64,000 nucleotides of DNA, taken from assembly GCA_017643395.1 (NCBI GenBank), contig JAEPNP010000001.1:641806-705805 (forward strand), written 5' to 3'. The number at the start of each line of letters is the position of its first letter. Within the stretch, counting starts at the first letter, position 1. Below are positions 49,858 through 60,892 of this stretch, piece by piece. Made by a program: the position numbers and the translations under genes. The notes below the pieces were generated by a model, which had not been told where the DNA came from, ran no database searches, and saw nothing but the letters and a program-made list of their open reading frames with translations. The stretch is from Rhodothermales bacterium. Lineage in GTDB: Bacteria; Bacteroidota; Rhodothermia; Rhodothermales; UBA10348.

Positions 49858-49930
49858 GGGCCCGTAGCTCAGCGGTTAGAGCAGTCGACTCATAATCGAT
49901 TGGTCGTAGGTTCGAACCCTACCGGGCCCA
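49858..49930 (+). tRNA. tRNA-Ile2 (anticodon CAU), used as integration site
   Basis: A 73-base cloverleaf. The acceptor arm GGGCCCG pairs with CGGGCCC (49,923-49,929), followed by discriminator A. The anticodon loop CTCATAA carries CAU in a stem with GTCGA/TCGAT, and the T arm is GTAGG-TTCGAAC-CCTAC. CCA is not encoded. The anticodon arm and variable region (ACTCATAATCG, TTGGTCG) resemble the tRNA-Ile2 whose C34 is changed to lysidine by TilS, and C4-G69/C5-G68 are present; elongator tRNA-Met is the alternative. The 3' end is the core of the att site of the adjacent element. Confidence 0.9.
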
Positions 49931-49931
49931 C
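49918..49931. other. attL, left attachment site
   Basis: The 14-mer CCTACCGGGCCCAC at the 3' end of the tRNA-Ile2 gene, repeated exactly at 60,739-60,752. The tRNA remains intact on this side. Confidence 0.75.
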
Positions 49932-52351: not shown

Positions 52352-53398
52352 TTAGTCGATGTGCCCGCTTTCTCGAAGTAGGTCGAAGACCGATGCCCCT
52401 GCTTTCAGCTTTCTGGCAACCTCGGTGTATTCAAGCCCGAACTCACGGGCGAAAGCCTTCTTGCTGGCAAACACCTCCTTGGTGTGTTCCACTACGACGG
52501 GCTGCGACCAAGGCTTGAGTTCACCGAGCAGCTGGTAGCCCTCCTCCTCAACTAGCGCTAACACGTCTCCGTGCTTAGCCATCCAAGGTCGAGGAGCAAG
52601 CCCGAACGCTTCTTCAGCGGTCTCGCCCGCTTCAAGACGTTGGATTACCGCCGAGTACGCAGGAAGTGTTCGATCCGCTGAAAGCTTTCGATAGGCCTCG
52701 GCAGCGTTGTCGAAGGTTCTCTGCTCTCCGCCGACCTCGACTTCGACGCTGATTCCTTTCGGCCTCTTAGGTGTGCTTACGGCCTCCCGGATTGTCATCC
52801 CGCTTCTAACCCTCGCTGCGATCTGGCGACCGGAAAGCCCGTGGCGATTCAGCTTCTTGTCGGCGGCCAACTCGGTATAAGACCGGTAACGCTTTCTAAA
52901 GACCTCGAACTCTCCCTCGGTGTCCTCCCTTGCTCGAAGGGCTTGCTCGCTGGCTTTCTCCAGGCTCAGACCCTTGCCCAGCCAGTGTTGTAGAGTGGAG
53001 TAGGAAACCTCAAGCTGACGACAGAGGTCGGCCTTAGAGGAATACGAGAACGCCTCATCTCGAATGGTAATCGTACCAGCTTCTGCCAGATCCCGGCGAG
53101 TGCTAGGTGCAGCGACCCTGTTAAGGCCGTTCTCTACTGAGTCGTACTCCTTTATGAAGCGGGTCTCCAAAGCATTCAGCTCCGCCTGCGTGTCGGCTTC
53201 CGCGACCTCCTCTACTACGAACCCATCGGGCCCGAAGGCCCGGATTACTTCGTACAGCGCCCCATTGCCCTTGCTGCGCCGCGAGAAATCGCCCGCTGCC
53301 CTCACGTGCTCCTTCCAACGATCCTGCGCTCTCTTTACAGTCTGGCCGATGTAGACCCCGTTGATCATGGGGTGGGAAATCTTGTAAATGCAGCCCAT
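52352..53398 (-). CDS. GIY-YIG endonuclease with C-terminal repeats
   Basis: A 348-residue protein. Residues 1-95 are a GIY-YIG nuclease domain: CIYKISHP and VYIGQT (the paired motifs), the Arg in DRWKEHV, the metal-binding Glu in LNALETRFIKEYDS, and NGLNRV. Residues about 110-348 contain four related HTH-like repeats of about 50-60 residues, each with a serine or aromatic start and an AxxLxxG-type end (SYSSKADLCRQLEVSYSTLQ, TFDNAAEAYRKLSADRT, VFASKKAFAREFGLEYTEVA). This is the layout of homing endonucleases with DNA-binding repeats. The start ATG at 53,396-53,398 is preferred to one 13 codons upstream. No intron or host gene is seen. Confidence 0.85.
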   Translation of the reverse strand: MGCIYKISHPMINGVYIGQTVKRAQDRWKEHVRAAGDFSRRSKGNGALYEVIRAFGPDGFVVEEVAEADTQAELNALETRFIKEYDSVENGLNRVAAPSTRRDLAEAGTITIRDEAFSYSSKADLCRQLEVSYSTLQHWLGKGLSLEKASEQALRAREDTEGEFEVFRKRYRSYTELAADKKLNRHGLSGRQIAARVRSGMTIREAVSTPKRPKGISVEVEVGGEQRTFDNAAEAYRKLSADRTLPAYSAVIQRLEAGETAEEAFGLAPRPWMAKHGDVLALVEEEGYQLLGELKPWSQPVVVEHTKEVFASKKAFAREFGLEYTEVARKLKAGASVFDLLRESGHID

Positions 53399-53500
53399 TG
53401 TGTTGCGGGATTGGCGGTCGAATGAAGGCAAACGCAAGCCTAAACGTCAACCCCTAACTCAATTTGCGAGTGCTGCTGACGAATCATTAGTTCGACATAG

Positions 53501-53516
53501 TCCGGGATATCCCGGA
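53501..53516. promoter_or_regulatory. Perfect 16-bp palindrome before the excisionase-like gene
   Basis: TCCGGGATATCCCGGA reads the same on both strands and lies 36 bases upstream of the HTH gene start. A related TCCGGATTATCCCGG stretch occurs inside the replication gene near 54,012. It could be an operator or a replication-protein binding site. Confidence 0.45.
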
Positions 53517-53552
53517 ATCCGGAATGGCACCGGTGTGCCACAGGCGGCGGCC

Positions 53553-53879
53553 ATGTCTAACTCAAACATGGTTGCTGTCATGCAAAACCAGTTTGCGATC
53601 CTTTCGACTGAGGATCTCTCTCTCCTCGTTTCCAAGGCGGTTGAGGCAGTCCTCAAGTCCCAGATGCCCCGACTGGCCGAGCGCATCAACTCGCCGGAAT
53701 ACTTCACCCAGGAGGCAGTATGCGCACTGACGGGGTGGTCACGTCGCCAACTACACTACCGCCGGAAGAAGGGATTCATCCCCTACTGCAAACGCGGACG
53801 CACTGTGCTCTTTAGAGCCGAGCAGGTGTACGCTTGGATCGAGGAGGGTTACGTACCTGCCGGGAGGTCGCTGTCATGA
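53553..53879 (+). CDS. Excisionase-like helix-turn-helix protein
   Basis: A 108-residue protein starting MSNSNMVAVMQNQF. The C-terminal 60 residues are a winged HTH of the MerR/excisionase type: QEAVCALTGWSRRQLHYRRK then GFIPYCKRGRTVLFRAEQVY. The Arg/Lys-rich RRQLHYRRKKG part is the likely recognition helix. Such proteins direct excision of tRNA-integrated elements or control their replication genes. The ATG at 53,553 is preferred over an open extension of 55 codons. The stop overlaps the start of the replication gene (ATGA), so the two are coupled. Confidence 0.75.
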   Translation: MSNSNMVAVMQNQFAILSTEDLSLLVSKAVEAVLKSQMPRLAERINSPEYFTQEAVCALTGWSRRQLHYRRKKGFIPYCKRGRTVLFRAEQVYAWIEEGYVPAGRSLS

Positions 53880-54649
53880 GCGGTTCCCATCCTCTAATAA
53901 CAAGCCCCCGTCGTGCAGATAATCTGTCGCTCAGCCCACGACGGTGCAAAGTCGGGACGGACTGGCTGCGCATATCGCTCTGTCAATACGAGATCGACGC
54001 AGACCACCCCTTCCGGATTATCCCGGCCGAACACACCACCCCGGCCGCCCTGTTCCAATCGGGGGACACCGTCTATTGGGGCGTTTGTGCCGCACTTCGG
54101 CAGCCGGGGTTCTCCGCGAGGATTTTCCGGCCCGCCGGGGCCCCAGCTTCCCTTTTTCAGATTCGAATAGAGGCCGCGTGTCAACTCGACGGCATAAACT
54201 TCCCCCTCGCTGATGAGTCGGAACTCCTGCGCGCACTCGCCAACTTGGAGGGAGACTTAGCTGATCTAGGGATTTACACGGACCTGGGCCGCGCGAAGAT
54301 GAGCCAGCTGGAAGTCGGTCAGGACATGGAGATATCCGGACCGCCTGAGGCCTACCTCGAAGTGATCGCCGACCGACGTGCACCATTCCGGGCCCGCCGC
54401 TATTCCCAGGGAAACTGGAGATGCTGGTCGAATCGAGAACGTTCGCTAGCCGTGTATGACAAGTCGCAGGAGATGCGTCGGAGGGGGCGGGATCCGGGGC
54501 AGTCGATTCTCCGGTTCGAGACTCGATTGAAAACCCCACGGTCGGTTCACATCCGAGCTGGATTGAAGACCGTATCGGAACTCCGCCAAAAGGGAATTTC
54601 CGAGGCGCGCGATCACCACCTCCGACTGGTGGGGAGGTTACTCAAATGA
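53876..54649 (+). CDS. Replication initiation protein, filamentous-phage/plasmid gene II-like
   Basis: A 257-residue protein with the pattern of Phage_CRI/gene X-type replication proteins: a late AVYDKSQEMRRRGRDPG segment, followed by ILRFETRLKTPRSVHIRAG, which lie in the right order for the family. Gene II proteins nick and rejoin DNA at an origin to start rolling-circle replication. I could not place the catalytic Tyr with certainty. It is coupled to the HTH gene upstream (ATGA overlap) and to the next gene downstream (ATGA overlap at 54,646-54,649). This suggests that the element replicates when excised. Confidence 0.6.
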   Translation: MSGSHPLITSPRRADNLSLSPRRCKVGTDWLRISLCQYEIDADHPFRIIPAEHTTPAALFQSGDTVYWGVCAALRQPGFSARIFRPAGAPASLFQIRIEAACQLDGINFPLADESELLRALANLEGDLADLGIYTDLGRAKMSQLEVGQDMEISGPPEAYLEVIADRRAPFRARRYSQGNWRCWSNRERSLAVYDKSQEMRRRGRDPGQSILRFETRLKTPRSVHIRAGLKTVSELRQKGISEARDHHLRLVGRLLK

Positions 54650-54948
54650 GAATCGTCGATGGACTCAGGGCAGAAATGGAGGAATATCGCCGAGAACACG
54701 GGGCCCGATGGGTTTCGGCCTACACGAAGGATATGGGCGCATCAGCCTTGGAAAGCTTGGTCGGTCGGAAAAAACTCCTCGCGACGGCGAGCCAGGTCGG
54801 CGGTAGTTCTGCTAGAAGGGCCCTCCAGCAAGCGGTATCTCATGCCAGGAAACGCCGGGAGACGCTCAACCGCACAGCCGTTGGAAATCGAACCCATCGT
54901 GCGCTCCTGGTTGAGATGCGGATGAAGTTGCTTGGTTCGGCAAGATGA
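54646..54948 (+). CDS. Small basic protein coupled to the replication gene
   Basis: A 100-residue, Arg/Ala-rich, probably helical protein (KDMGASALESLVGRKKLLAT, RRALQQAVSHARKRRETL). There is no motif or signal, and I do not recognise the family. Its start overlaps the replication gene stop by 4 bases, so it belongs to the same three-gene operon and may be a replication accessory or copy-control protein. That role is inference. Confidence 0.6.
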   Translation: MRIVDGLRAEMEEYRREHGARWVSAYTKDMGASALESLVGRKKLLATASQVGGSSARRALQQAVSHARKRRETLNRTAVGNRTHRALLVEMRMKLLGSAR

Positions 54949-55213: not shown

Positions 55214-56485
55214 ATGAGTTACAGACCCCCCGATAGCCCCGCTGTTGCGGCCATGATCGCCGCCTCCGCGCTTTTCGCGATCATGGCCCAGTTGGTTCAG
55301 GGAGTTGGCGCTGGGGCCTGGTCAGTTCTGGCTCGTGGCACGGTCCCGCTCCTTCTGCTTCTGGTCCTCAGTCCTAGAGCGATCCTTCGTGCCGCGCGGT
55401 CGAGGGAAAGGCCGCTTGTTCTGCGCACCACACTCGCAGCCATCACCATTTTGCTCGCGTTCTACGCCCTGGAGCGCTTGCCCACTTCGCTGGTGGCGGC
55501 ATCGCTAAAGGCAGCACCAGTTTGGCTATTTGTCCTGGCCGTGGTGTCTGGCAGGATTCGACTTGGCCGAAGCAGCCTTTTCCTGATTCCGGTTGTCCTG
55601 GGAATCGTGGTACTAGGATGGCCGAACGAGCAGCATGCAGGCATACCGATGGCTGCCGCACTCCTTGCGGGGCTCGTGGCAGGGGTCTCCTACTCAATGC
55701 TCGCTCAGGTTCGCCGGGCAATCGCGACCGAGGTCGTCGCACATTTTTCCATTGGCCTGACTGTCGTTGGAGCCGTTAGCATCCTGCTAACTGGTAAGGC
55801 TATCCCCTCGGGTTCTTGGCCGACACTATTCGCCATTGGGGCTCTGGCCTATGCTATGCAGTGGCTCGTGGCATTTGCTTTCCGACATGGACGGGGGGAG
55901 ATCATCTCGTTTGTTGGCTACTTCGGGGTCCTGTTCGCGGCTGCCCTGGATATTTTCGTCGCGGATGTGATCCCAGGCACGGGTCAAGTTGTCGGGGCAG
56001 CTCTTCTGCTATCCGGCACGCTTGGTCTTCTAGCCCTAAACCCTAGGCAGATCATGGTCCTGGCCAAGGTGAAGGCTGGTGGATCACTCCAAGAGCTGCG
56101 GAGCTTTTCTGGGGCTTTGGGGGAGGCGATTGCCACGGCTGAGGAATCGACCAGTATCCAGATGGGGATCCGAGTCACTGACGCGGTGATCACCGATGCC
56201 TGGCTCCGGAGAGCCTACGATGAGAGTAGTCTGGGATCGCACGCTCACGGCGTCCTGATTGCGTTCAACCCAGAGGCCCGGTCGCTTGCTGCAGTCGGTG
56301 GCACCGGAATACCCAGGTTCAGATTCGAGCGCGACTTTCGGCACGCGCTGAACCGAGCTTCGAATGCCCATCAGGCTCCTGTGGCTGTCGTGGCGGCGAT
56401 GACGCAACTCGTGGTCGCACTTTCGCCAGAGTATCCCCCAGACGCGAGTGTGGAGGATCTACCGAATGACGTCATTTTTGGCTAG
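55214..56485 (+). CDS. EamA-family (DMT) transporter with C-terminal domain
   Basis: A 423-residue protein. Residues 1-285 form an EamA/DMT transporter with about ten hydrophobic segments (such as LLLLLVLSPR, LFLIPVVLGIVVLGW, GAVSILLTG). Residues about 290-423 are a soluble C-terminal domain (GIRVTDAVITDAWLRRAYDE, HGVLIAFNPEARSLAAVGG). That domain is not part of standard EamA proteins of about 300 residues and I do not recognise it. DMT proteins usually export amino acids, nucleosides or small metabolites. The gene is convergent with the acyltransferase-like cassette and overlaps its last gene by 14 bases, which suggests a shared function such as export of the cassette's product. Confidence 0.8.
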   Translation: MSYRPPDSPAVAAMIAASALFAIMAQLVQGVGAGAWSVLARGTVPLLLLLVLSPRAILRAARSRERPLVLRTTLAAITILLAFYALERLPTSLVAASLKAAPVWLFVLAVVSGRIRLGRSSLFLIPVVLGIVVLGWPNEQHAGIPMAAALLAGLVAGVSYSMLAQVRRAIATEVVAHFSIGLTVVGAVSILLTGKAIPSGSWPTLFAIGALAYAMQWLVAFAFRHGRGEIISFVGYFGVLFAAALDIFVADVIPGTGQVVGAALLLSGTLGLLALNPRQIMVLAKVKAGGSLQELRSFSGALGEAIATAEESTSIQMGIRVTDAVITDAWLRRAYDESSLGSHAHGVLIAFNPEARSLAAVGGTGIPRFRFERDFRHALNRASNAHQAPVAVVAAMTQLVVALSPEYPPDASVEDLPNDVIFG

Positions 56486-57038
56486 GTGCCCGGAGGATGG
56501 CCTCCGCGATGCGGGCCGCTGCGGAATCTCCGTACTTGTCCAGATCCAGCTGGGCAATGACGAAAGGGATTCCTGGAACCTTAGGCGACGGCAGCGGGCT
56601 TACCTCGTAGCCGATATCCTCAAGGAAACGAAGTCGTCGCGACGTTGCGGCTAGGCGTCCCACCAGCGTACGCACTCCCGCGCCGGTAGCGCGCTTCATC
56701 AAGGCCAGTCGCAATCGCATAGAAAGGCCTTGACCGCCGTAGTCCTGGTGTGTGGCTCCACGACCAAGCACTCCGAACGGAGCTGGATGGAGCGAGCGAT
56801 ATTTGGGGATACTCAGCGAGTCCGCCAACTGCGCGTGGTCCGCCAAGACCTGCAGTCGCATAGTGGAGACAATCGACCCATTGATTTCGCATACCATCAC
56901 GAGAGCTGCATCGTCCGAATCGTTCCACAAGGCCCAGCTGTAGTCAGGCTGCCGCAGATTCGTCCCACGCGAATAGGCTCGAACTCTCAGGTCTGATACC
57001 TCCGACGCCCGCTCCCGCCCAACCGTAAGAATCTTCAT
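56472..57038 (-). CDS. Acyltransferase-like (GNAT-fold) protein, paralog 1
   Basis: A 188-residue protein. It has LRVRAYSRGTNL near the start, SIVSTMRLQV at about 55-64, and LGRGATHQDYGGQGLSMRLRLA followed by RTLVGRLAATSRRLRFLEDIGYE, with the G-G-x-G loop expected for acyl-CoA or acyl-ACP binding. The order R...STMR...GRGA...G-G-G-L fits GNAT and autoinducer-synthase-like (LuxI/FeeM-type) enzymes. Paralogs 2 and 3 lie directly upstream with the same layout. The start ATG overlaps the stop of paralog 2 (ATGA). The substrate is unknown. Confidence 0.7.
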   Translation of the reverse strand: MKILTVGRERASEVSDLRVRAYSRGTNLRQPDYSWALWNDSDDAALVMVCEINGSIVSTMRLQVLADHAQLADSLSIPKYRSLHPAPFGVLGRGATHQDYGGQGLSMRLRLALMKRATGAGVRTLVGRLAATSRRLRFLEDIGYEVSPLPSPKVPGIPFVIAQLDLDKYGDSAAARIAEAILRAPSQK

Positions 57039-57709
57039 GACTGGGCCGGGACGAATCCCGTTCCAAGTCGATGACGATAAACCGCCGCCGGTCGGCTCTG
57101 CCTACGTGGCCGACGTCCCCTTTGGGACGCTAGTTGCCGGGGGGGGGGCAGGAGGTTGGCGTACGATTGGAGGTCAGCCTCAAGTCGCCTAATTGCCGAG
57201 TCGCCGTAGACGCGCAGATCCAGTTCGACCAGGACCTTTTCAATGCTTGGGGTGTCTCGCGACTGCAGGGGCATTGCTCGATATCCAAGTTCGCCGAGAT
57301 ACGATAGTCTGCGGGACTGGGCAGCCACGAGTCCGACCAGTGTGTGCACGTTTTGGCTAGCGGCAATCCGCATCAGGTGGAGCCTCAGGTTCATCGAGAG
57401 CCCCAATCCCCCGAATCCCCGCTTGGTCGCCCCACGCCCCAGTAGCCCGAAAGGCGGCTCACCACTAGGCCGACAGGCTGGGCCCAAGATCTTAGCTAGG
57501 GACGCTTCGTCCGAGACTGTACTCAAGCGCATAGTCGAAACGAGCGCCCCGGTATTCTCAACTGCCAACACCGTCGAAGTGTCATCTGTTGTGTCCCACT
57601 CCGCCCACCTGTAGTCACTCGCCTTCGTATGCGCACCCTTGGAGTAGGCTGAGATCCGAAGGCGAGAGATTTCGTCTTTGTGTGATGCGTCGACGCGGAT
57701 TATCTCCAT
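57035..57709 (-). CDS. Acyltransferase-like protein, paralog 2, with homopolymer-dependent tail
   Basis: A 224-residue form as read here. The core matches paralog 1: LRISAYSKGAHT, LVSTMRLSTV, LGRGATKRGFGGLGLSMNLR, TLVGLVAAQSRRLSYLGELGYR. Near residue 190, ten C on the coding strand (57,139-57,148) give LLPPP and carry the frame into an Arg-rich tail that ends exactly at the ATGA overlap with paralog 1. With 9 or 12 bases in the tract the frame would end at once (stop at 57,130-57,132). The start ATG lies 2 bases after the stop of paralog 3, so the three genes are one operon. Confidence 0.7.
   Translation of the reverse strand: MEIIRVDASHKDEISRLRISAYSKGAHTKASDYRWAEWDTTDDTSTVLAVENTGALVSTMRLSTVSDEASLAKILGPACRPSGEPPFGLLGRGATKRGFGGLGLSMNLRLHLMRIAASQNVHTLVGLVAAQSRRLSYLGELGYRAMPLQSRDTPSIEKVLVELDLRVYGDSAIRRLEADLQSYANLLPPPRQLASQRGRRPRRQSRPAAVYRHRLGTGFVPAQS
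57139..57148. repeat. Poly-G/C tract (10 bp) in paralog 2
   Basis: Ten consecutive G on the + strand (C on the coding strand). Long mononucleotide runs are prone to slippage. A change of 1-2 bases alters the C-terminus of paralog 2 and its coupling to paralog 1. Confidence 0.85.
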
Positions 57710-57711
57710 CT

Positions 57712-58315
57712 CTATGTCAGGCCCCTGATAGCGGCTTCGACAGCGGGAAGGGATTGCCCACCAAGGTCGCGCACGATTCGGTGAATAGCGGATTGTCCTT
57801 GGCGTTCAAGATCAAGGACTACGAAGGTCTTGTCGCTGGTGAAGCCAATGGGATGCTCGCCAGGCATGCTAAACGCCTGATACCCAAGGCCCCGGAGGTA
57901 GGCGAGCCGACGCGCATTTCCTGCGACGACCCCGCACAAACACTTAAACCCACGCTGACATGCCTCCACCATAAGCCACACCCGGAGATTCATGGAGAGC
58001 CCCCCCCCCGTGAGTGGGACTAGTTGCCGCTCTACCCAGGCACCCAGCGGGAAATCTGAGATCAAGTCCAGTGGTGAGAACGTGTAGTTCGTCGTCGACC
58101 CCTGACCGAGTCTCGTGGAAAGTCAGGCGCATCGTGGACACTGGTTGATCTCCATCCCAGATCGCCGCAACCACCGCTTTCTCGTCGATAGAGTCCCATG
58201 CAGCCGCTGATGCGTTCCGGACGTTTGCGCCTTGGGAGTAGGCTCGCAATCGAAGTTGCTCAATTGCGCGGTAGTCACTTGTGGTAACGGTTTCCAAACG
58301 TAGGGTGTCTCGCAT
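57712..58315 (-). pseudogene. Acyltransferase-like protein, paralog 3, frame broken at a poly-G tract
   Basis: The N-terminal half (from ATG at 58,315) reads LRLRAYSQGANV, PVSTMRLTFH, LGRAATSPTHGG. The C-terminal half, in a different frame, reads GLSMNLRVWLMVEA, CGVVAGNARRLAYLRGLGYQ, and ends GLT before TAG at 57,712-57,714. The join is a 10-G tract (58,000-58,009). Nine or twelve G would connect the halves, and twelve would restore the same spacing as in paralogs 1 and 2 (about 201 residues). All paralog motifs are intact on both sides, so this is a recent or reversible break, a phase-variable OFF state, or a base-count error. As given, it encodes a truncated product. Confidence 0.7.
58000..58009. 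repeat. Poly-C/G tract (10 bp) at the frame break of paralog 3
   Basis: Ten consecutive C on the + strand (G on the coding strand) within the conserved GGxGLS loop. It is a candidate contingency locus. Confidence 0.85.
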
Positions 58316-58348
58316 TTCGGCCGCCTGCGTTTCGTCTCCCTGGCCATC

Positions 58349-58759
58349 TTAGCAAGCACGCTTGCCGACGGCAAGCCAATTGACTCGGTATTGCTTCCTG
58401 CTCCAGACCGACCAAAACTGTAAGCGGAAGCCGTCTGCAGTCTTGTATTCCACGGACGCCCCGCCGAACCCCGCCTGCCTAGGGTCTTCGAGTTCATGCG
58501 GCATCGCAAAGTGCGAATTCGTGGCCACCACCGAGTACTTCTCGTCGGCGAACCCAAGACCGGCTATGTCCTTGGTCACCCAGTAGAATCGATTTGAGTT
58601 ACCTGGATGGCCGTATTCACCGGTTGTCAGATCTACTTCGCCCCACACCAAGCGGAGTTCGCCGACGTCGACCGCGCGGGTGTACTCTGGACCTTCCGAC
58701 CTAAGGTCATCTACCTGAACAAGTTGGCAGATCAGATTCTGGAGTAGTTGGATGTCCAT
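58349..58759 (-). CDS. Hypothetical protein
   Basis: A 136-residue protein starting MDIQLLQNLICQLVQ. It contains FYWVTKDIAGLGFADEKYSV and a late FGGASVEYKTADGFRLQFW, a mix of strands that suggests a small alpha/beta fold. There is no signal or recognised motif. The ATG at 58,757-58,759 overlaps the start region of the divergent gene by 12 bases; a longer start at 58,840 is possible. The next gene downstream, 33 bases away, is paralog 3, so it may lead the acyltransferase operon. Confidence 0.55.
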   Translation of the reverse strand: MDIQLLQNLICQLVQVDDLRSEGPEYTRAVDVGELRLVWGEVDLTTGEYGHPGNSNRFYWVTKDIAGLGFADEKYSVVATNSHFAMPHELEDPRQAGFGGASVEYKTADGFRLQFWSVWSRKQYRVNWLAVGKRAC

Positions 58760-59326
58760 GGGTCCTCGGCGTCTTGTGAGTTCCTCGTCTGCTACGATTA
58801 TCCTTGCAGTTGCTACGGATTGCGTAACCACCAGAACCAACCAGTGCCACCCGACCTCTTCCGAGACCTTTTCGTTGACCCCGAACTGCTTCCGCAGGTT
58901 CAGGAGGGCTGGCTTGAACTCTTCCCAGGAAGCATGTCTGGATACGATTCCAGCTGGAATGCTGGTCCTGCGGGTTCAATCAAGGGCGTGCTTTGGGCGG
59001 CCTCCAAATGGTTGCCGAAAGCCAGAATAGGAATCGACCTTAGCGGCTGGAGTTGCAGGGGATGTGGTTACGCAAGCTTTCTAAGCATGCTTTGTCGAGT
59101 CCTCGATCACACAAATCGCCCAACCTTTGAGGAGAAGATCCTTCCCTACGTCGAGTCTCTCCGCGACGACCCAGATTTCGCCGTCAATGCGGAAGCAGCC
59201 CTGCCGCTTGTTGTACGACTCCATTCGCCAAGCGCCCGCCTACTGGACCAGCTAGAGTACTACCACGAGAGAAAGCGGGTCATGGAATTCGCCATAGGCC
59301 TAAGGTGGTGGGGGCAGAGTACCTGA
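58748..59326 (+). CDS. Hypothetical protein with several Cys residues
   Basis: A 192-residue protein as read from TTG at 58,748. The N-terminus carries CEFLVCYDYPCSCYG and the centre DLSGWSCRGCGYASFLSML, so it has several Cys in pairs. They could bind a metal, although the spacing does not match a known zinc ribbon with certainty. The C-terminal part is helical (ARLLDQLEYYHERKRVMEF). The start is uncertain because it overlaps the divergent gene. I do not recognise the family. Confidence 0.5.
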   Translation: MDVHGSSASCEFLVCYDYPCSCYGLRNHQNQPVPPDLFRDLFVDPELLPQVQEGWLELFPGSMSGYDSSWNAGPAGSIKGVLWAASKWLPKARIGIDLSGWSCRGCGYASFLSMLCRVLDHTNRPTFEEKILPYVESLRDDPDFAVNAEAALPLVVRLHSPSARLLDQLEYYHERKRVMEFAIGLRWWGQST

Positions 59327-59418: not shown

Positions 59419-60600
59419 CTAGAAGATCGACTCGACAAGCGCGTCCACAGCATCTTGGTCAAAGCTGCTCAAGTAGCTCTGGGTAATCTGGATATTTGAG
59501 TGTCCTAAAGCCTTGCTAATCGCGTACAAGTCCCCTCCTGACACTCTCGCGTGGTCTGCGAAGGAGTGTCGAGCGACGTGCATTGTAAGACCGCCAGATT
59601 GCACGCCCGCCGCTTCCGCCACCTTCTTGATGTTTCGGTTTGCAATGACGTTGCGGGAGGAGATCCGCCTCTTGGCGGTTGGCAAGTCTCGTAGGTCCCC
59701 AGAGCGCAGGTACGGAAATAGGCAAGGAAAGCCTGCCAAGGGATATCTAGTTGAGATAACGAGTGCCTGTTCAGGTAGCTTTACGCTGACGGGTTGGCCG
59801 GTCTTCATCATGCGATAGTGAAGCCTGCCGTCTACCATATTCTCGGGCTTGAGCATGCAGAGGTCGCCGAAGCGAACCCCGCTCGCATAGAAGGAAAACA
59901 GGAAGGCATCCCGAGAAATGGCCAGCGCACCGCCCTCGCCCAGCGACAGAGATTCTATCGCGGCGATCTCCTCCCGCTTCAGTCGTCGCTTCTGTACTGG
60001 CTCGGCGCTGGGCCGTTGATACCCTCGAAACGGATCGGTGTCCGAGCTTAGGAGACCACGAGCCACCTGTCGCCTATGAAGGCGGCGGAGTCGCTTCAGG
60101 TGATTGCGGACGGTGTTGTTGCTATTACCATCGATCTCCCGCAGGAAAGACTCGAATCGCACGAGAGAGGCTGCATCTAGATCCCTCCAGGCGACGAGCT
60201 TGCCGAAGCATCGCTCGACCTTATTTCTGAGGACTCCGAAGTGCTTGAGCTCCCAGACCTTGCCCTGCCCCCCCAGGACGTCGCGGAACGCGTCCAGATC
60301 GTCGAGTAGCAATCCAGACCCAATCTTGGCAGCCCTCACCACTGCGCGTGCTGTGGGGGCGTCCAGGCCCCTCTCTCGGGCCTCGTTGAGCATTTGCTCA
60401 ATCTTGCGGTTGTAGGCATCCGCGAGATCGTGGCTGCTGCGAACTCGCGCCCGCCGCTCATTCCACTCTGTAGTCCTTACGGCTATGCCAACGGCGTACT
60501 TGCTGGTCTTCCTGTTTACCGTGACCCGGATGTAGATCGGGCAGGTACCGTCTGCCCGCAGCCGATCTTTTCTGATAATGGCCTTGATGGAGGCGGGCAT
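59419..60600 (-). CDS. Tyrosine recombinase / integrase
   Basis: A 393-residue integrase of the Bacteroidota type. An arm/core-binding N-terminal region (KAIIRKDRLRADGTCPIYIR, then about 95-195 of SAM-like helices) is followed by the catalytic domain, with Arg in YASGVRFGDL, Lys in RMMKTGQPVSV, the H-x-x-R of HVARHSFADHA, His in LGHSNIQ, and Tyr nucleophile in ITQSYLSSF. The ATG at 60,598-60,600 is chosen over an extension of 8 codons. It lies 139 bases from attR1 and reads toward the element's interior. Confidence 0.92.
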   Translation of the reverse strand: MPASIKAIIRKDRLRADGTCPIYIRVTVNRKTSKYAVGIAVRTTEWNERRARVRSSHDLADAYNRKIEQMLNEARERGLDAPTARAVVRAAKIGSGLLLDDLDAFRDVLGGQGKVWELKHFGVLRNKVERCFGKLVAWRDLDAASLVRFESFLREIDGNSNNTVRNHLKRLRRLHRRQVARGLLSSDTDPFRGYQRPSAEPVQKRRLKREEIAAIESLSLGEGGALAISRDAFLFSFYASGVRFGDLCMLKPENMVDGRLHYRMMKTGQPVSVKLPEQALVISTRYPLAGFPCLFPYLRSGDLRDLPTAKRRISSRNVIANRNIKKVAEAAGVQSGGLTMHVARHSFADHARVSGGDLYAISKALGHSNIQITQSYLSSFDQDAVDALVESIF

Positions 60601-60738
60601 TCGGGGACAACAGTGGGGCAACAAGTATCGAGGCCGAGTGCAACGAGACTGTGCAACTCGTGACTCAACACACGTATTTTAGGTATTTTGAAGCGGTATT
60701 GCACAGGGATGCTGCTTTTCGGAACAAGATGTTGTTGT

Positions 60739-60752
60739 CCTACCGGGCCCAC
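60739..60752. other. attR1, right attachment site
   Basis: An exact copy of the 14-mer at the tRNA 3' end, CCTACCGGGCCCAC, in the same orientation. The sequence continues TATGGGG. Confidence 0.7.
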
Positions 60753-60878: not shown

Positions 60879-60892
60879 CCTACCGGGCCGAC
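60879..60892. other. attR2, second att-like site
   Basis: CCTACCGGGCCGAC, one base different from the att core, with ACTATG following as at attR1. It lies 140 bases beyond attR1, immediately before the lipoprotein start codon. Between the two sites, GGTTCGAACC at 60,809-60,820 resembles a T-arm, so tRNA-like remnants may be present. Confidence 0.5.

Follow-up and report, generated by a model that had tools for sequence, protein, structure and literature searches.

An exporter gene and three paralogs on a mobile island

Within the window (the whole 64,000-nucleotide stretch of DNA that was analysed), an exporter gene converges on three genes of one family, P1, P2 and P3, behind which lies a further open reading frame (ORF), orf0. 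This region is held in a 10.8-kb integrative element, whose bounds are a tRNA-Met gene and a 14-bp copy of the 3' end of that tRNA. The features, in window positions, are as follows.

49858-49931, + strand: tRNA-Met (ARAGORN)
49918-49931, + strand: attL core CCTACCGGGCCCAC, the last 14 bases of tRNA-Met by sequence
53388-53879, + strand: HTH_17 excisionase-like gene (Pfam HTH_17 3.4e-6, above cut-off; phrog_66 6e-7)
53834-54649, + strand: putative replication-protein-like gene (relatives in genomes G085, G450 and G457)
54646-54948: 100-aa ORF, 3' of the replication-like gene
55214-56485, + strand: exporter ORF, 423 aa; DMT/EamA-type transporter with 10 TM segments (residues 10-275) and, at its C terminus, a probable TPM domain (about residues 300-423)
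56472-57038, - strand: P1, 188 aa, putative GNAT-superfamily protein, FeeM/LuxI-like (FeeM 0.002; Foldseek BjaI 3.7e-4 and GNATs; VIA-align)
57035-57709, - strand: P2, 224-aa paralog (47% identity to P1; FeeM 6.7e-4; coding score)
57139-57148, - strand: C10 tract in P2 (G10 on the + strand)
57712-58315, - strand: P3, the third paralog, interrupted by a frameshift at a G tract (P1 is matched by its N half and its C half alike)
58000-58009, - strand: G10 tract in P3, in the Gly-rich cofactor loop
58349-58759, - strand: orf0, 136 aa, 33 bp upstream of P3 and on the same strand (best-scoring frame)
59419-60624, - strand: tyrosine recombinase (integrase), adjoining attR (Pfam Phage_integrase 8.8e-15, Arm-DNA-bind_5 3.3e-14)
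60739-60752, + strand: attR core CCTACCGGGCCCAC, an exact repeat of the tRNA 3' end that forms the other element border

An integrase gene combined with direct repeats at a tRNA is the signature of an integrative element, and the cassette sits on a mobile island, as a previous sequence-only reading had proposed. The excisionase-like gene, the replication-like gene and the 100-aa ORF all lie upstream of the cargo. For an empty-site comparison, the tRNA was found at 97% in G452, on a 4.6-kb contig sharing no flanks with the element. A second copy of the att core, matching at 13 of 14 positions (CCTACCGGGCCGAC), is located at 60879-60892, 140 bp beyond attR, and may have been left by an earlier or a tandem insertion. 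The element also contains a GIY-YIG homing-endonuclease-like gene with helix-turn-helix-like stretches (52352-53437).

As for the cargo, the exporter gene and P1 are convergent and overlap by 14 bp (56472-56485), just as had been read from the letters. P2 ends in a 4-bp ATGA overlap with the start of P1, and a full-length P3 would end 2 bases before the start of P2. The proposal of three tandem paralogs stands for their homology and for the P1 and P2 ORFs, but P3 is not intact, being frameshifted in the assembly. Moreover, the span originally assigned to the four-gene set (55214-58759) includes an unrelated ORF, orf0, which has no family match and is a possible first gene of the operon. At that end, two ORFs on opposite strands (58349-58840 and 58748-59326) run into each other; with the ATG at 58759 as the start of the first, they share 12 bp. 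Neither has a family match. No lipid or glycan gene and no LuxR-type gene was recognised within the element, and PADLOC, which covers known anti-phage families, returned nothing for the exporter, P1, P2 or orf0.

The paralogs probably adopt a GNAT fold and lack the FeeM/LuxI Glu

P1 and P2 are 47-48% identical, while P3 is 35% identical to P1 when both of its frames are joined. FeeM is the only family matched by all three paralogs, with Pfam E-values of 0.00067-0.025 and scores of 14.8-19.9 bits that do not reach the PF21926 cut-off of 27 bits; there is no Pfam autoinducer-synthase match at E-values up to 1. A profile of the three paralogs weakly matches GNATs in the PDB through the cofactor loop, and phosphinothricin-type acetyltransferases make up most of the solved structures matched by sequence profile. 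The AlphaFold model of P1 is of low confidence (mean pLDDT 45, pTM 0.42). When this model was submitted to Foldseek, acyl-homoserine lactone (AHL) synthases (BjaI at 3.7e-4, RpaI and MesI) and GNATs ranked first. In VIA-align, it gave Z scores of 7-8.6 to GNAT, LuxI-type and FeeM structures (8.6 to a GNAT and 8.0 to MesI), values that under about 8 can reflect merely a common arrangement. Both sets of matches extend over most of P1, and a GNAT fold of the paralogs, supported by this pLDDT 45 model, is likely. The acyltransferase-like and autoinducer-synthase-like motifs that had been pointed out are therefore best described as GNAT-superfamily signals closest to FeeM/LuxI, and structure prediction, the check that had been suggested for them, gave a low-confidence model resembling LuxI-type and GNAT structures rather than one unlike acyltransferases.

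The conserved residues are consistent with the FeeM/LuxI-like branch. A Gly-rich GG-x-GLS cofactor loop is present in all three paralogs, as are Arg18, Asp42, Arg61 and Arg93, and P1-P3 share with FeeM and the type I N-acyl amino acid synthases (PF21926; 2G0B) the order of elements: LR near the N terminus, Asp, an R-L strand and x-R. By its low-confidence model, P1 would also have the GNAT fold of FeeM (2G0B) in common. The active site of FeeM-type enzymes includes a Glu, which is Glu95 in FeeM and Glu103 in Nas354, where its loss abolishes the phenotype (PMC4897644); that of LuxI-type enzymes includes Glu101 and Arg104 (PMC9654057). In P1-P3, the residue aligned with this Glu, three positions ahead of the conserved Arg, is V, L or C, whereas the FeeM-family matches L051-L053 carry E-x-x-R in the same alignment. 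By this R93/E-x-x-R alignment, the LuxI active-site pair is reduced to its Arg (R93 of P1, equivalent to Arg104). Unlike FeeM, the paralogs thus lack the catalytic Glu and score below the Pfam cut-off, and there are three of them, two with homopolymer tracts; unlike LuxI-type synthases (BjaI, RpaI and MesI, which head the Foldseek list for the P1 model), they lack the Glu101 equivalent and the autoinducer-synthase Pfam match, and their element has no recognised LuxR-type gene. Since the Glu is absent, P1-P3 are not established as FeeM/N-acyl amino acid synthases or as AHL synthases.

Between the paralogs, pN is 0.38-0.53 against a saturated pS of 0.76-0.80; for the P3 halves before and after the frameshift, pN is about 0.44-0.53 against a pS of about 0.79. 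All three paralog genes bear the marks of past purifying selection.

The exporter carries a probable TPM domain

The assignment of the exporter to the EamA family has held, with a weak two-repeat score: two EamA stretches are matched at 5.2e-5, with 24 bits against a Pfam cut-off of 28.2. This part has ten hydrophobic segments with positive-inside charges, and ten TM segments in two EamA repeats are the topology of DMT transporters. Relatives are found in 15 other genomes among 114 in the order, at identities of at most 29% and through the EamA part only; in these, the open frames measure 287-348 aa and show no C-terminal TPM-like domain. A phage DMT family, phrog_18638, also matches the exporter (1.4e-7) and led to no phage with this layout.

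What had been missed is an extra C-terminal domain, which sets the protein apart from EamA/DMT exporters. The 144-residue tail, which contains an eleventh, weak hydrophobic segment, matches Pfam TPM at 0.0024 (18.3 bits against a cut-off of 22.1). The Foldseek top four for its model (pLDDT 42) are all TPM-type, with E-values of 0.035-0.06, so that TPM proteins (7TBR, 5ANP, cg2496 and TLP18.3) are matched weakly by both structure and Pfam. With this low-confidence model in support, the tail is a probable TPM domain, and in contrast to those TPM proteins it is fused to a transporter and, by predicted topology, put in the cytosol. A stand-alone TPM-like protein encoded beside a LemA-like gene in G041 is 32% identical to the tail. 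When a DMT-TPM fusion was sought elsewhere in the phylum, this stand-alone protein was the best-looking match inspected, and some weak matches were not read in the right frame. No paper combining DMT and TPM terms was found in the literature searched. If the TPM assignment is right, this would be, to our knowledge, the first DMT-TPM fusion.

Two rare G/C tracts lie within the operon

The poly-G/C tracts at 57139-57148 and 58000-58009 are each exactly 10 bp long, and they are the only runs of at least 8 G/C in the window. The 4.5-Mb genome contains six G/C runs of at least 10, two of which fall in this 1.8-kb operon. The other four lie between recognisable genes or at the end of one, so that, by ORF reading rather than curated annotation, the P2 and P3 tracts are the only two of the six inside recognisable genes. 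The binomial probability of two of six runs falling within 1.84 kb is about 2.5e-6, a post hoc figure; G tracts in the operon exceed chance.

In P2, a tract of 7, 10 or 13 bases leads the frame to 57035, overlapping the start of P1, while the stop falls at 57130 for 9 or 12 C and at 57102 for 8 or 11 C. With 10 C, the tract is followed by a 34-residue tail of poor coding score, ending in the ATGA common to the P1 start. In P3, the tract encodes GG(G)GLS, the counterpart of GGQGLS in P1, and the two halves of the gene (58315-58010 and 57999-57712) are in different frames. Among tract lengths of 7 to 14, 9 and 12 G alone keep the P3 frame open, giving 200 or 201 aa, whereas the assembled 10 G give 123 aa ending at 57944. 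Because all three genes show purifying selection, the P3 frameshift would be recent, switchable or a sequencing error.

A long, frame-changing homopolymer inside a gene is characteristic of phase-variable loci. The Campylobacter and Neisseria poly-G contingency loci likewise have intragenic G tracts of slip length, of which one is off here; in contrast to those loci, the present tracts are known from one assembly, without observed variants, and switching, a pseudogene and a homopolymer sequencing error are not separable there. The earlier suggestion that poly-G tracts vary expression gains from their being frame-changing and genome-rare, which would fit contingency switching. Since P3 would end 2 bases from the P2 start and P2 shares its ATGA with P1, we infer that both tracts could set downstream expression through coupling. 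In the literature searched, we found no case of poly-G phase variation in the FeeM/LuxI-like enzyme family.

Related islands carry other cargo

The replication-like gene has relatives at E-values of 1e-15 to 1e-18 in G085, G450 and G457, where similar small genes adjoin it. The neighbours of this xis-rep module are different there, and cargo differs among related islands. In G085, the related element (L043:12176-13375; similar xis-rep genes and an integrase) encodes a defence-like pair, consisting of a TIR protein of the Thoeris ThsB type and a membrane protein of the 8xMP/DUF7701 kind. In G457, the related element (L045:5498-7155) encodes a DUF4365 protein followed by a 384-aa protein.

As for the cassette itself, searches of the phylum and class genomes with P1 and the three-row profile recovered P1-P3 from their own genome only; a weak match to P1/profile, L006 (E 0.003), was not taken as a relative. 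Pattern-plus-tblastn searches with P1, P2, A1, A2 and A4 found none in viral contigs and the genomes of 85,000 species, nor did tblastn of plasmids and phages return a P1-P3 relative. Pattern scans miss diverged relatives, so this absence is weak evidence. No second copy of the exporter and enzyme set was found in the collections searched, at limited sensitivity. Consequently, the link between exporter and enzymes rests on adjacency and the convergent overlap, as no second genome shows both; a convergent layout alone does not link the genes. The families in the cassette are already known, and their arrangement is a new variant built from them.

Proposed working of the cassette

Our preferred reading, to which we give a probability of about 0.4 for the function as stated, is that of a contingency (phase-variable) cassette of GNAT-type acyltransferases and a DMT exporter; our confidence in its anatomy, leaving function aside, is higher. 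The cargo of a site-specific integrative element would comprise three GNATs of the FeeM/LuxI-like branch and a DMT exporter with a cytosolic TPM domain. The enzymes would acylate a small compound, either an amine or one resembling an amino acid, and the acylated product would be removed by the exporter, while slippage at the two 10-bp G tracts would alter the set of paralogs produced. P3 would be on with 9 or 12 G in its tract and off with 10 (as assembled) or 11, and translational coupling into P2 would switch along with it. In P2, the assembled 10 C would let translation reach the ATGA and feed P1, other lengths tending to an earlier stop. The first proposal, that small acylated molecules are made and exported, is weakened: with V, L or C at the Glu position, their synthesis is a guess, and P3 is out of frame in this assembly.

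One competitor, which we regard as unlikely, is decay or artefact: P3 would be a pseudogene or the result of a miscounted homopolymer, the tail of P2 would be frameshift debris, and there would be no switching. P3 is indeed out of frame, the P2 tail scores poorly as coding sequence, and homopolymers are error-prone in what is a single assembly; yet both P3 halves are still conserved, P1 and the exporter show no further frameshift, and two tracts share one operon in a genome holding very few. About equally unlikely is detoxification or self-protection, the GNATs acetylating a toxic amine or amino-acid analogue that the DMT pump expels, with no signal or secondary metabolite involved. Export of amino acids and drugs is common among DMT proteins, and both the phosphinothricin-type acetyltransferases prevailing among the profile matches and the missing FeeM/LuxI Glu would suit such a role, although it would be unusual for simple resistance to involve three divergent paralogs and two possible switch tracts, and the sole family matched by all three is FeeM. 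Surface-modification genes are a typical setting for poly-G switching. Modification of the cell surface or of lipids, in which an amino lipid or glycan precursor is N-acylated, the DMT protein is a flippase and switching varies the surface, for example for phage escape, would agree with this, with the longer acyltransferases among FeeM-type relatives in this phylum, with the defence-like cargo on sister islands and with Cj1295, a homopolymeric-tract gene that modifies the flagellin glycan (PMC3068675), but is more unlikely still, given that no lipid or glycan gene is recognised in the element.

Returning to the contingency cassette, a bolder version, which we think improbable, is a mobile phase-variable acyl-small-molecule system. 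Its tracts would select among three orphan FeeM/LuxI-like enzymes by frame and coupling, and the DMT exporter, with TPM as its control domain, would release the products, so that clonal cells would differ in exported molecules (signal, inhibitor or phage-related). If the contingency reading is right, random slippage in codons of the cofactor loop and of the tail would make the acylation and export of small molecules more diverse, and would do so from a mobile cassette. Among the genomes searched, P1-P3 lack recognisable relatives, and their activity is easily testable; the DMT-TPM fusion would, in turn, offer a handle on the role of the TPM domain.
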